Shown: positions 20,986-48,284 of the stretch, piece after piece
How the letters are laid out: every line of letters begins with the position of its first letter
Numbering within the stretch: position 1 is the first letter of the stretch
Assembly (NCBI RefSeq): GCF_900113225.1
Contig: NZ_FOZE01000001.1
Coordinates: forward strand, 1,922,001 to 1,986,000
DNA: 64,000 nucleotides
Source: Mitsuaria sp. PDC51
GTDB taxonomy: Bacteria > Pseudomonadota > Gammaproteobacteria > Burkholderiales > Burkholderiaceae_C
Reading direction: 5' to 3'
Position numbers and translations under genes: made by a program
Notes under the pieces: model-generated
What the model was told of the DNA's origin: nothing
Databases searched by the model: none
What the model saw: the letters and a program-made list of their open reading frames with translations, nothing else

Positions 20986-21258
20986 ATGACCACACGCCAC
21001 ATCATCCTCGCCGCGCTGACGGCCGCGCTGGCGGCGGGCACCTCGGCCCATGCGCCTGACGGTCGCGACACCAAGAGGTGGTATGGCCTCATCAAGGCAA
21101 GTCAGAACAATCATGAAGATCTGTCAGTCGAGGCGGCGATCGGTCAACTGCCGAGCGACTGGCAATACCTCCCCGCAGCACCGGCCCGCGTGACGAGCGG
21201 GATCGGCCCCGGGTCCATCGGCGCCGAGGGCCGTGGCGGCGCGAAGGCGGCATCGTGA
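20986..21258 (+). CDS. Cysteine-free DUF2282/bufferin-like secreted peptide
   Basis: Small protein of 90 aa with a signal peptide (TRHIILAALTAALAAGTSA, cleavage probably near residues 20-23). The mature part follows the DUF2282 (bufferin-1/BufA) pattern: WYGLIKASQNN aligns with the family's CYG-KAG-ND block and DWQYLP with its W-YVP block. All four family cysteines are replaced: Trp32, His43, a residue near Glu49-Ala51, and Ala65 or a neighbour. No cysteine occurs anywhere. CGGAG precedes ATG 20986, and the stop overlaps the next gene as GTGA, so the frame is real and coupled to the MNIO homologue. Bufferins bind copper after MNIO modification of cysteine; this peptide cannot be modified in that way. 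Homology is judged by eye. Confidence 0.7.
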   Translation: MTTRHIILAALTAALAAGTSAHAPDGRDTKRWYGLIKASQNNHEDLSVEAAIGQLPSDWQYLPAAPARVTSGIGPGSIGAEGRGGAKAAS

Positions 21259-22214
21259 GGTCCGGCGCCCCCTTGTGGCCGGTCGCCGTGGGCGTCGCGT
21301 GGCGGCAGCCCCATTACCAGGAGGTGATGGTCCGCGGCGCGCCCGGCATCGATTTCCTCGAGGTCCTCACCGAGGACTTCCTGTCGCCCGGCGGCGCGGC
21401 CCGCCAGCTGCTGCTGGACGCCGCGCGCCGGTTCCCGGTGAGCCTGCACGGCGCGGGCCTGGGGCTGGGCTCGGCGGTCGGCATCGACGGCGGCCACCTG
21501 CGGCAGGTGAGGGAGCTGGTGGACGCGGTGCGGCCGGGCGCGGTGTCCGAATACGCCTGCTTCAACCGCGTGCATCGACCCGGAGCGCCCATCCACCTGC
21601 ATGCGCGGCTGCCGATCCCCTTCAGCGAACGCAGCCTGTCGCTGCTGGCCGACCATGTCGACACGGCGCAGGAAGCGCTGGGGCGGCAGATCCTGATCGA
21701 GCCGATCGCGGCCTGCCTCGCGTGGGACGAGGACACGCTGAGCGAGCCCGCGTTCTTCAATGCGCTGGCGCGGCGCACCGGTTGCGGGGTGCTGGTCAAC
21801 CTGGACAGCCTGGTCGTCACTGCGATCAACCGCGGTCATCGGGACGAGGCGATCGTGCGGGCCGGCATCGCCTGGCTGGACGAGATCGATCCGGCCGTCG
21901 TCGGCCAGTACCACCTGGCCGGCCATGCGCAGGCGCAGGGCGTGGCCTTTGGCGGGCAGGGCGATCCGGTCGGCGAGGACGTCTGGTCGCTCTACCGCCA
22001 CGCGCTGGGCCGCATCGGCGCCCGCCCGACCGTGATCGACCGCGGCCGTCCGGCGCCGCCGCTGGCGACGCTGACGGAGGAGGTCGCGCGGGCGCGCCGC
22101 GAGCAGCAGGCCTTCGACCGCGAGGTGATCGCGCCGCCGCCACCTCGGCAGGACCGGCGCGGCCGGGACAGCTTCCCCATCCAGTTCCAGGAGTCCGACG
22201 ATGACGCGGCATGA
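21255..22214 (+). CDS. DUF692/MNIO (BufB-like) protein with altered metal site
   Basis: TIM-barrel protein of 319 aa related to the multinuclear iron oxidases that modify ribosomal peptides (MbnB, TglH, BufB). Fold motifs persist: GVAWRQPHY, VSLHGAGLGLG (His65), LPIPFSE, HLAGH (His220, His224), VWSLYR. Usual signature residues are changed: S-D/E-H reads SEY (Tyr100), LEN reads IEP (Pro150), DVNN reads NLDS (182-185), NHG reads NRG (Arg193), DTH reads GGQ (233-235), ERD reads DRG (262-264). This suggests lost or altered iron chemistry. The extra C-terminal tail (about 280-319) is charged and Pro-rich. GTG 21255 overlaps the precursor stop. Confidence 0.8.
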   Translation: MRSGAPLWPVAVGVAWRQPHYQEVMVRGAPGIDFLEVLTEDFLSPGGAARQLLLDAARRFPVSLHGAGLGLGSAVGIDGGHLRQVRELVDAVRPGAVSEYACFNRVHRPGAPIHLHARLPIPFSERSLSLLADHVDTAQEALGRQILIEPIAACLAWDEDTLSEPAFFNALARRTGCGVLVNLDSLVVTAINRGHRDEAIVRAGIAWLDEIDPAVVGQYHLAGHAQAQGVAFGGQGDPVGEDVWSLYRHALGRIGARPTVIDRGRPAPPLATLTEEVARARREQQAFDREVIAPPPPRQDRRGRDSFPIQFQESDDDAA

Positions 22215-23076
22215 GAGCGACGAACAGAACGGGCAGCGCAAGCTGATCGAACGCCAGGGCCGGCTGGCCGACACCCTGCTCGCGGCCTCCGAGGGCGAGG
22301 CGCTGGCCCTGGCGCCGGCCGGCCTGCATGCGCTGCCGGCGCTCCCGGGCGGCCTGGCCCAGGCGCTGCGGCTGTACCGCGTCCAGGCCGGCCTCCGCGC
22401 CGAGCGCGTGCTGGCCGGGGTCTATCCGCGCCTGCGCGAGCGCATGGAAGCCCACCAGGCAGGCAGCTTCGCCTCGCTGGCCTGGACCTGCTGGCGCCGT
22501 CACCCGCCGGTCCAGGGCGACCTCGGCACCTGGGGCGAGGCGCTCATCGGCCTGCTCGCCGAGGCCGAGGCGGTCGGGCTGCCACCGCTGTGGACCGCGC
22601 TGGCGCGCCTCGAATGGAACCTGCATCAGGTCGAGCGCCTGCCGGAGCCGGGGCGGGATCCGGGCTCGCTGGTGCTGCTGGGACGACTGCCCGCCGCGGC
22701 GGTGCGGCTGGTGCTGGCGGACCATGTGGCGCTGCATCGCTGCCACGCGCCCTCGCTGCGCGGGCTGCTCGAGCTGCCGACGGAGAGCTTCGGCATCGGC
22801 GCGCGCGAGGCGGTGGTCGTCTGGCGCGACGGCTGGCAGGGCCGCGCGATGGCGATCGACGCCGCCGCGCTGCGCTGGTTCGAGGCGCTCCTGGCCGGTC
22901 ATGACCTCGAGCGCGCACTCCAGCTGGCTGGCGCCGCCTTCGACTTCAGCGCCTGGCTGCCGGTGGCGATGACGCGCGGCTGGATGGCGCGGGTCGAGAC
23001 GGTCGAGCAGGGCGGGGGCGCCGACGCCTACGGCGTCGCGTTCCCCCTGCGGTTCACTCGCGGGGTCGGAAGGTGA
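22201..23076 (+). CDS. DUF2063 (BufC-like) protein
   Basis: Protein of 291 aa, the usual third member of bufferin clusters, thought to deliver the precursor to the MNIO enzyme. The N-terminal DUF2063 domain is recognisable: ALRLYRVQAGLRAERVLAGV, then YPRLRERM, WRRHPPVQGDLGTWGEAL and LARLEWNLHQ. The usual YRNN motif is YRVQ here. The second half is a weaker NGO1945-like C-terminal domain. It overlaps the DUF692 gene by 14 bp, giving a tight three-gene operon. Its last 23 bp overlap the end of the convergent tolA gene. No DoxX-like gene or ECF sigma factor adjoins it. Confidence 0.78.
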   Translation: MTRHESDEQNGQRKLIERQGRLADTLLAASEGEALALAPAGLHALPALPGGLAQALRLYRVQAGLRAERVLAGVYPRLRERMEAHQAGSFASLAWTCWRRHPPVQGDLGTWGEALIGLLAEAEAVGLPPLWTALARLEWNLHQVERLPEPGRDPGSLVLLGRLPAAAVRLVLADHVALHRCHAPSLRGLLELPTESFGIGAREAVVVWRDGWQGRAMAIDAAALRWFEALLAGHDLERALQLAGAAFDFSAWLPVAMTRGWMARVETVEQGGGADAYGVAFPLRFTRGVGR

Positions 23077-23968
23077 TGATCATCACCCGCGGCACGGTGC
23101 CGTCGGTGTCCGTCGGCAGCTTCTCCGTCTTGTCGAGCGCGCGCAGCACCGCGCCGTCGAAGTCCGGCAGGCCGCTGGACTTGACGATCTTGCGCGCCAC
23201 GATCGTGCCGTCCGGGCCGGCGCGGACCTCGACCTCGGCCTCGGGGTTGGACGGACCGCCCGGGTCGGCGTAGATGATGTTGGGCCGCACGCGGGCCTTG
23301 ATCCGGCCCGCGTAGTTGGCCGACGGGCCGGAGCTCTTCAGCGCCGTGCCGGTCGAGGTCGGTCCGCCGCTGGCGCCGGCCATGCCCTGGATGCGCCGCA
23401 GGTTCTCCTGGCGCTGCGCCTCGGCGCGGGCTTCCGCGTCCTTGCGGGCCTTCTCGGTCTTGGCCTTGTCGGCCTTCTCCTTGGCCTCGTCCTTCTTCGC
23501 CTGCTCTTCCTTGGCCTTGCGGTCGCGCTCCTTCTGCTCGGCCTCGTCCTTGCGGCGCTGGTCCTGTTTGCGCTTTTCCTCGGCCTCGCGCTGCTCCTGC
23601 TCTTCCTTCTGCTTGCGCTCCCTGGCCTTGGCGATCGCGATGTCCGCGTCGCGCTGCGCCTGGACCTCCTGGGGCGTGGGCTGCTGCGGCTTCGGCGGCT
23701 CGGGCTGCGGCTTGGGCGGCTCGGGTTGAGGGTCGGTCGGCAGCTGTTCCTTGGGCGCGGCGGCCTGGGGCACGGCCGACCACAGCTCCGCCTCGAGCGC
23801 CGGCACCGGCGTCGAGCGCCAGCTCACGCCGAAGCTCAGCGCCACCACCAGCAGCACGTGCGCGACGACCGCGAAGCTGAAGCCGCGGCCCAGGCCCGGC
23901 GCCGGCGGAGGACGCAGCGGATCGCGTTCGGGGTGGAATCGGGAGGCGATGTCCATCGCGTTGCTCAT
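23054..23968 (-). CDS. tolA: TolA-like envelope protein
   Basis: Periplasm-spanning protein of 304 aa anchored by one N-terminal helix (GFSFAVVAHVLLVVALSFGV). After a Pro/Gln-rich stretch (PPKPQPEPPKPQQPTPQ) comes a long charged coiled coil (about residues 110-200, rich in KEEQ/KADKAK), then a compact C-terminal TolA/TonB domain (ANYAGRIKARVRPNIIY to FRPRE). It should couple TolQR proton-driven motion to the outer membrane. It is the last gene of tolQ-tolR-tolA; the tolB and pal genes that normally follow are not here, and the next gene is convergent bufC-like. Confidence 0.85.
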   Translation of the reverse strand: MSNAMDIASRFHPERDPLRPPPAPGLGRGFSFAVVAHVLLVVALSFGVSWRSTPVPALEAELWSAVPQAAAPKEQLPTDPQPEPPKPQPEPPKPQQPTPQEVQAQRDADIAIAKARERKQKEEQEQREAEEKRKQDQRRKDEAEQKERDRKAKEEQAKKDEAKEKADKAKTEKARKDAEARAEAQRQENLRRIQGMAGASGGPTSTGTALKSSGPSANYAGRIKARVRPNIIYADPGGPSNPEAEVEVRAGPDGTIVARKIVKSSGLPDFDGAVLRALDKTEKLPTDTDGTVPRVMIITFRPRE

Positions 23969-48120: not shown

Positions 48121-48284
48121 CGCCGCGTATGGGCCAGGCGTGCCGTTGTCGACCGCCCACGCTGGCGCAGCGAATTCGACACGAACTCGCAGCCGGGCGC
48201 CCCGAGCCCTTGTTGAGCCGCGTCAAGGCGCATCGGCGCTCGAGCCGCCACCATCCGGGCTTTCGTTTTTTCCGGAACCCCACC

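Follow-up and report, generated by a model that had tools for sequence, protein, structure and literature searches.

MNIOs are generally taken to be oxidising maturases. In the bufferin-1 system, which is the closest described relative of the locus considered here, bufA encodes a DUF2282 precursor, BufB is the MNIO, BufC is its DUF2063 partner, and a DoxX protein is also part of the system; the same study catalogued about 14,000 MNIOs and identified the central cysteine pair of the precursor Buf1 as the modified residues (PMC12452194). Its named precursor families, all of which carry cysteine, were built from cysteine-containing candidates, and its last step, covering the unannotated ORFs of the remaining clusters, left these ungrouped, so that a cysteine-free branch could easily be missed by such a survey. 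A ligand-depleted MNIO is not described in the available part of that paper, and the words ligand, inactive and degenerate are absent from its main text. In the wider literature, no paper combining MNIO with pseudoenzyme was found, and a search for bufferins in Roseateles or Mitsuaria gave nothing on topic among the matches listed.

Nine iron ligands have been described in TglH: H71, H107, E151, D184, N187, H216, D229, H231 and E258 (PMC10880893). In MbnB, the substrate thiolate is bound at site 1, which contains two histidines; site 2 contains one, and these two sites form the active pair, a manner of working that HvfB is considered to share (PMC13419390). From the text of the latter paper, H71 and H107 can be tentatively attributed to site 1, and H216 can be placed at site 2. 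Changes of single TglH ligands abolish activity or reduce it strongly, with some variants keeping a little, and changes of the site-3 ligands of HvfB likewise abolish it or cut it strongly (PMC10880893, PMC13419390).

The locus under study lies in a stretch of 64,000 nucleotides of Mitsuaria sp. PDC51, here called the window; the window's own genome is referred to as G000, and a sister species, represented by one genome, as G003. Three overlapping genes (20986-23076; Table 1) encode a precursor, an MNIO and a DUF2063 protein, the latter directly following the MNIO, and the bufferin-1 gene order ABC is thus present. The stop codon of the precursor overlaps with the start of the MNIO in the tetranucleotide GTGA. 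The precursor, which a first-pass annotation had called cysteine-free, does lack cysteine altogether, and carries a putative signal peptide, MTTRHIILAALTAALAAGTSAHA, that was judged by eye to be of Sec type. Pfam DUF2063 recognizes the third gene product (22201-23076) with an E value of 1.1e-4 and 22.9 bits, below the curated 27.2, while a DUF2063 profile seeded within the clade gives 325 bits, a score that is high partly by construction, since the seeds include the window protein and its G003 orthologue. Beyond the TonB-type gene lie ExbD- and ExbB-type genes. The operon had also been described as intact; this did not hold up, since tblastn located no doxX at the locus, and its upstream region lacks the ECF-type promoter pattern seen in the basal orthologues.

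Table 1. Features of the bufferin-like locus, in window coordinates, with metal-site residues placed by alignment to TglH
Feature	Position	Strand	Remarks
Candidate FNR/DNR-type palindrome TTGATCCTTGTCAA	20831..20844	.	141 nt upstream of precursor start codon
bufA-like precursor	20986..21258	+	90 aa; cysteine count 0; N-terminal Sec-type leader (by eye)
MNIO/DUF692-fold protein, BufB-derived, rewritten metal site	21255..22214	+	GTG start, 319 aa
His65 (TglH His71), site 1, kept	21447..21449	+	alignment
Tyr100 (TglH His107), site 1, changed	21552..21554	+	alignment
Glu149 (TglH Glu151), bridges Fe1 and Fe2, kept	21699..21701	+	alignment
Asn182 (TglH Asp184), bridges Fe2 and Fe3, changed	21798..21800	+	alignment
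Ser185 (TglH Asn187), site 3, changed	21807..21809	+	alignment
His220 (TglH His216), site 2, kept	21912..21914	+	alignment
Gly233 and Gln235 (TglH Asp229 and His231), site 3, both changed	21951..21959	+	alignment
Asp262 (TglH Glu258), site 2, conservative change	22038..22040	+	alignment
DUF2063 (PME-type, BufC-like) partner	22201..23076	+	291 aa
TonB-type gene, convergent neighbour, syntenic-site marker	23054..23968	-	named by eye

The MNIO is an unambiguous DUF692 homologue, as had been proposed: it matches PF05114 with an E value of 7.5e-64 (216 bits, cut-off 25), and the best solved-structure matches of its AlphaFold2 model (pLDDT 89.8) are TglH (8hi7, Z 28.8), the DUF692 protein 3bww (Z 27.0) and MbnB (Z 25.9-26.6). 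Against NF050167, the BufB family, it reaches 216.4 bits, below the cut-off of 310, and a paralogue of the same genome reaches 338.7; since an intact orthologue (G002, 301.2) also falls just short of 310, this cut-off alone does not separate the window protein from intact MNIOs.

The departure lies in the metal site. Aligned with TglH, the window MNIO keeps three of the nine ligands, replaces one conservatively and has lost five. All of site 3's own ligands are gone, site 1 lacks one of its two histidines, and site 2 is altered, with four potential ligands remaining in the alignment (E149, N182, H220 and D262). The six motif changes listed in the first-pass annotation are all present, but two of them leave the ligands untouched: the change of LEN to IEP retains the ligand glutamate, and that of NHG to NRG alters no ligand, NRG being also carried by the fully liganded orthologue of G002. 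A complete iron site built from residues located elsewhere would have pointed in another direction; at the level of sequence, no obvious replacement His/Asp/Glu site is visible. The protein has probably lost its multi-iron chemistry.

Such losses are rare. All nine ligands are present in 130 of 138 MNIO frames, and the eight deviant frames correspond to six distinct genes (two occur twice, under different locus identifiers), all from a single Roseateles/Mitsuaria clade, outside which 122 of 122 frames (121 distinct genes) are complete. E151 and H216 are unchanged throughout the 138 frames, position 184 is always D or N, and position 258 always E or D. A class-level sample comprised 50 further genes, one per locus, drawn from the 30 best loci and from 20 mostly low-scoring stretches, with four controls and the reference row left out of the count; 47 were complete, two incomplete in the alignment (L170 and L173) and one divergent (L171). 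Similar degeneration was seen in none of the 122 frames outside the clade, and clearly in none of these 50 genes. The divergent gene (G527:C9:49000-50100) carries H, D, E, D, H, H, D, H, Y in its ligand columns, in an uncertain alignment, and resembles the Phe-acting enzyme of PMC12257519. Elsewhere in the class-level search, the MNIO is split over two matches at G454:C6:148474-149117 and at G517:C1:450404-451164, one of them with an internal TAG, and these are possibly broken copies; a metagenome contig titled Klebsiella pneumoniae (L107), a label that may be wrong, encodes an MNIO that is 43% identical to that of the window.

Within the genus, an orthologue of the window MNIO is found in ten of 16 genomes, the window's own included, and the other full-length matches are paralogues of 30-38% identity. 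Nine of these loci (all but that of G008) were examined: TonB- and ExbD-type genes lie downstream in 9/9 and Pcp lies upstream in eight, the stretch from G001 being the one where Pcp was not seen. A rooted tree of 68 sequences places G001 and G014 at the base, followed by G002, G004 and G006-G008, and then by G012 together with G000 and G003. The clade common to the changes, which a phylogeny had been expected to reveal, is recovered in this tree with a support of 100, a value printed after re-rooting and possibly shifted by one node.

The basal orthologues at this syntenic site are bufABC-doxX operons, with doxX present in G001, G014 and G002 and not found at the other six loci examined. The precursor has four cysteines in those same three genomes, one in G004, two in G006, G007 and G008, and none in G000 and G003; G012 lacks a separate precursor: the core peptide is deleted there, and the leader continues in frame into the MNIO. 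The ligand count is 9/9 in G001, G014, G002 and G004, and 7/9 in G006-G008, where N187 and D229 are changed, though in the latter case the next residue is Asp. It falls to 5/9 in G012 (H71, H107, D229 and H231 changed, E, D, H, E of site 2 all kept) and to 3/9 in G000 and G003, which have all six changed states in common. The idea of a matched loss is borne out by this series, in which the loss of metal ligands accompanies that of substrate cysteines. According to the alignment, G004 and G006-G008 retain the third of the four precursor cysteines, which is one of the central Buf1 pair. The orthologues with this cysteine (7/7) have both site 1 and site 2 complete, and those without it (3/3) have them incomplete, a match that may reflect one single event, since the latter three form one clade. 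In G004, with one cysteine and 9/9 ligands, substrate loss is ahead of enzyme loss.

Several of these loci display further rearrangements. The join between leader and MNIO in G012 lies in L009 (reverse strand, start at oriented position 1411), and its MNIO might be exported. In-frame MNIO-DUF2063 fusions, accompanied by two-cysteine precursors, occur in G006 (L005:1501-3339), G007 (L008:1501-3477) and G008 (L007:1498-3165). The AlphaFold2 model of the G006 fusion has both domains folded (pLDDT 87.5, pTM 0.86), which has no bearing on function. The G008 fusion has an in-frame TAG in its DUF2063 part (L007:3166-3168), with similar coding sequence beyond it; G008 is a metagenome-assembled genome, and the TAG may be an assembly error. 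No natural MNIO-DUF2063 fusion appeared in the titles or abstract openings among the literature matches listed; MNIO-nitroreductase fusions are named in PMC12452194, and an engineered HvfBC fusion in PMC13419390. The orthologue is missing from six genomes of the genus (G005, G009, G010, G011, G013 and G015), in which a single contig carries Pcp and ExbD at a distance of 0.9-3.0 kb (L211-L222); in G005, G010 and G011 this gap is 0.95-1.0 kb, with space for about one TonB-sized gene, and the site is apparently empty.

The precursors themselves degrade along the same series. A tblastn search with the window precursor (E 1e-4 or better) recovered the same-locus precursors of G002, G004, G006, G007, G014 and G003, and did not find that of G001. 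DUF2282 scores are 83-87 bits for four-cysteine precursors, 18-25 for those with two cysteines and 12.8 for G003; the window and G004 precursors gave no match, with a listing to E 10 for the former. Conservation in the degenerate precursors is highest in the leader: the first 66 nt of the gene are identical between G000 and G003, and the leader is retained in G012. In addition, a KRWYGLIKA...DWQYLP pattern is kept in the precursors of G000 and G003. A crude census of upstream ORFs marked 14 of 131 loci as having fewer than four cysteines or no ORF, but wrong ORFs were picked in both directions, since it passed G004 (one cysteine) and flagged L121, L048, L046 and L112, all of which have ordinary four-cysteine precursors. 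Outside the clade, a pattern search located a precursor-like stretch with four cysteines in front of 114 of 121 loci. No such stretch was seen upstream of L072, L086, L089, L091, L094, L103 and L118, one of which is cut by a contig end, and because of these seven loci cysteine-free precursors are not claimed to be unique to the clade.

The window genome also harbors a canonical operon, with a four-cysteine DUF2282 precursor, a fully liganded MNIO and a DUF2063 protein; inspection by eye adds a DoxX gene and, in divergent orientation, a gene for a sigma factor. The two systems have different leaders (MTTRHIILAALTAALA versus MKSTTLSLALVTLTTL). Every genome with a cysteine-poor or missing precursor (7/7) also encodes one or more further MNIOs in which the nine ligands are complete.

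The promoter regions changed as well. The palindrome TTGA-N6-TCAA, which we take to be a putative 'FNR box', is found upstream of 8/10 orthologous operons and of 0/119 other MNIO loci with enough upstream sequence; in shuffled sequence, the chance per region was 0.004 or less (0.003 and 0.004). An ECF-type pattern, TGTAANC-N15-17-CGA, precedes the operons of G001 and G014 and 18/119 other MNIO loci; 12 of these belong to the genus, which has 18 other MNIO loci in this set. The eight derived orthologues lack the ECF-type pattern, and all eight have TTGA-N6-TCAA. Across the 5.85-Mb genome, the stricter TTGAY-N4-RTCAA occurs at 13 sites, against 2 for a reversed control. Beside eight of these 13 sites lie ten ORFs, which include one COX1-type oxidase, one NapD domain and one CRP/FNR-family regulator; none of the remaining seven (a two-component kinase, an aminotransferase, a DUF3579 protein, a chemotaxis protein, an acyl-CoA dehydrogenase and two without match) points to FNR. 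The window operon may be under FNR-type control. Within the window, a second site of the form TTGA-N5-GTCAA, TTGAGCCGCGTCAA, lies at 48213-48226.

Selection on the degenerate genes was estimated from codon substitutions. Between G000 and G003, dN/dS is 0.143 for the MNIO (2dlnL 56.4 against 1) and 0.147 for the DUF2063 gene (66.2), while for the precursor it is 0.46, below 1 only on a borderline basis (2dlnL 3.7). The canonical operon gives 0.057, 0.122 and 0.103 for MNIO, DUF2063 and precursor, and the neighboring lysE and tonB genes 0.034 and 0.020, in the same pair of genomes. All three frames, some 2.1 kb, remain open in both G000 and G003 at a synonymous divergence of 0.24-0.43. In a ten-taxon codon model, the stem and tips of G000 and G003 are at 0.17, G012 at 0.165 and the rest at 0.11, a rise on stem and tips that is not significant (2dlnL 4.4, 2 df). 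The fully liganded, four-cysteine tips G001, G014 and G002 are lower (0.088, against 0.135 for the rest; 2dlnL 5.2), which speaks for some relaxation in the other lineages. In the two-cysteine lineages, where distances are saturated, the MNIO is at 0.11, DUF2063 at 0.15-0.17 and the precursor at 0.16-0.17; these pair estimates and those from the codon tree are rough, because neutral lengths exceed 1. The degenerate genes are probably somewhat relaxed, yet clearly under selection, which for the MNIO and its DUF2063 partner has remained purifying after the losses.

The distribution of the changes within the MNIO is not even. Considering columns conserved at 95% or more, the window protein is changed at 5/8 ligand columns and 4/36 others (Fisher p 0.005), and that of G012 at 3/8 and 0/36 (p 0.004); with an 85% threshold the enrichment holds for the window (6/9 and 14/64, p 0.011) and fails for G012 (4/9 and 13/64, p 0.20). 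Random drift of a divergent copy is ruled out by this preference for ligand columns, and sequencing error by the occurrence of the same states in the separate assembly of G003; the possibility, raised at the outset, that the substitutions are random among homologues finds no favor on both counts. A pseudogene, as a main reading, is rejected in view of the dN/dS of 0.14-0.15 after the losses and by the open frames.

The reading that we prefer, with a probability of roughly 0.6, is that a one-time bufferin maturase persists as a pair of proteins outside RiPP biosynthesis, perhaps regulated by low oxygen. The window operon would represent a late stage in the stepwise dismantling of a bufferin operon, a series that would have started from bufABC-doxX with a four-cysteine precursor, an ECF-type promoter and 9/9 ligands, and would have passed through replacement of that promoter by an FNR-type box, loss of doxX, loss of cysteines, loss of site 3 and MNIO-DUF2063 fusion. 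It would end either in a cysteine-free precursor with damage to sites 1 and 3, as in the window, or in deletion of the core and fusion of the leader to the MNIO, as in G012. With sites 1 and 3 apparently broken, as far as sequence can tell, the multi-iron, cysteine-oxidising chemistry of the MNIO would be gone and the protein presumably inactive; MNIO and DUF2063 protein would persist as a pair that binds the leader without catalysis and acts together with an exported peptide left unmodified or, in the case of G012, with a leader that has become part of the MNIO; expression of the pair would be driven by an FNR-type promoter and no longer by one of ECF type, while canonical bufferin production would be left to the second operon of G000. 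A leader-dependent pair is favored because no part of the degenerate precursors is as well conserved as the leader and because in G012 it is fused to the MNIO with the core deleted. What such a pair might do, as scaffold, decoy or regulator, is a guess. It is of note that neither the change of promoter nor redundancy in itself entails a loss of catalysis, since G002, with four cysteines and nine ligands, has both the box and a second MNIO.

Some observations stand against this reading. The window MNIO and precursor are less constrained than their canonical counterparts (0.143 against 0.057, and 0.46 against 0.103), which would fit slow decay too; the survival of site-2 residues is compatible with catalysis; and the match between site 1 and the third cysteine is unreplicated, since G012 groups with G000 and G003. 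Slow decay proper, in which a redundant bufferin operon under relaxed selection drifts towards a loss that is not yet complete, would account for dN/dS values above those of the canonical copy, for the other fully liganded MNIO in 7/7 affected genomes, for the absence of the orthologue from six genomes of the genus, three of them with Pcp and ExbD only 0.95-1.0 kb apart, and for the TAG in the DUF2063 part of G008. We consider it improbable in view of three frames of about 2.1 kb that stay open in G000 and G003 at a synonymous divergence of 0.24-0.43, of dN/dS at 0.14-0.15 with 2dlnL of 56 and 66 against neutrality, of changes concentrated at the metal site and of a conserved promoter box. An even smaller chance is given to a decoy or inhibitor, in which the inactive pair would bind the leader of the canonical precursor, or that of its own peptide, and damp maturation or export in the second operon: a canonical operon with a four-cysteine DUF2282 precursor does co-exist with the window system, and conservation of the degenerate precursors peaks in the leader, but the two leaders differ, with no sign of cross-binding, and so do the two promoters.

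The alternative with the strongest claim, unlikely as it is, supposes that the MNIO is an active, re-tuned metalloenzyme, probably mononuclear at site 2 (Glu149, Asn182, His220 and Asp262, perhaps with Tyr100 or His65), whose target in the exported peptide is a residue other than cysteine. Its fold is common to one-metal sugar epimerases (Z about 17-18), and the single-metal E-D-H-E site of the sugar 3-epimerases may resemble MNIO site 2. Such an enzyme is conceivable because the site-2 positions are conserved, always Glu, His, an acid and Asp/Asn in 138/138 frames, and because MNIOs acting on residues other than cysteine exist, such as StdDE on homocitrulline (PMC13174530); the AlphaFold-predicted ligands of an MNIO that acts on a Phe motif include Asp at the position aligned with H107 and His at that of N187 (PMC12257519). 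G012 keeps E, D, H, E while sites 1 and 3 lose ligands, and the KRWYGLIKA...DWQYLP pattern persists in G000 and G003. However, two of the four site-2 ligands are altered in the window, and damage extends to site 1, the thiolate binder of characterized enzymes; constraint on the precursor is weak (0.46), there is no core left in G012 that could be modified, and the nine predicted ligand positions of the enzyme in PMC12257519 are not kept by the window MNIO.

Taken more broadly than the retained pair that we prefer, the series could record a RiPP maturase complex being freed from its peptide, where FNR-type control is acquired and loss of cysteine is followed by loss of the thiolate site and then by a peptide-independent or leader-fused protein, possibly with one metal at an epimerase-like site; this sequence of events is tentative, and we hold it at somewhat less than an even chance. 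If true, ten species of one genus would keep its intermediate steps. Living species carry intermediate forms at a single chromosomal site, from which the sequence of substrate and enzyme breakdown can be read directly, and natural variants in which site-3 ligands are lost alone, or in which sites 1 and 3 are hit and site 2 is kept, allow each iron site to be tested. Furthermore, a metal-stress peptide operon has apparently been re-wired to an FNR-type promoter.

Regarding known systems, the window locus departs from bufferin-1, with its DUF2282 precursor of four cysteines, in a precursor without cysteine, in the change of six of nine MNIO ligands, in the absence of a detectable doxX, in an FNR-type box in place of the ECF-type promoter and in an MNIO that scores below the BufB cut-off; doxX and the ECF-type promoter occur in many bufferin-1 operons, not all, and the window has neither. 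TglH, MbnB and HvfB hold two or three irons with nine conserved ligands, of which the window MNIO departs at six. The biphenomycin-type MNIO acts on a non-cysteine (Phe) motif, and its position aligned with H107 is not His, as in the window, although its predicted ligands occupy nine positions, unlike those of the window protein (PMC12257519). The xylose-isomerase-like sugar 3-epimerases have a similar fold (Z about 17-18), with 9-15% identity in the rows listed and no link in substrate. What the window system retains in common with bufferin-1 is the gene order, a leader-bearing precursor, the MNIO fold and a DUF2063 partner, and with TglH, 3bww and MbnB it shares a TIM-barrel fold at Z 26-29.
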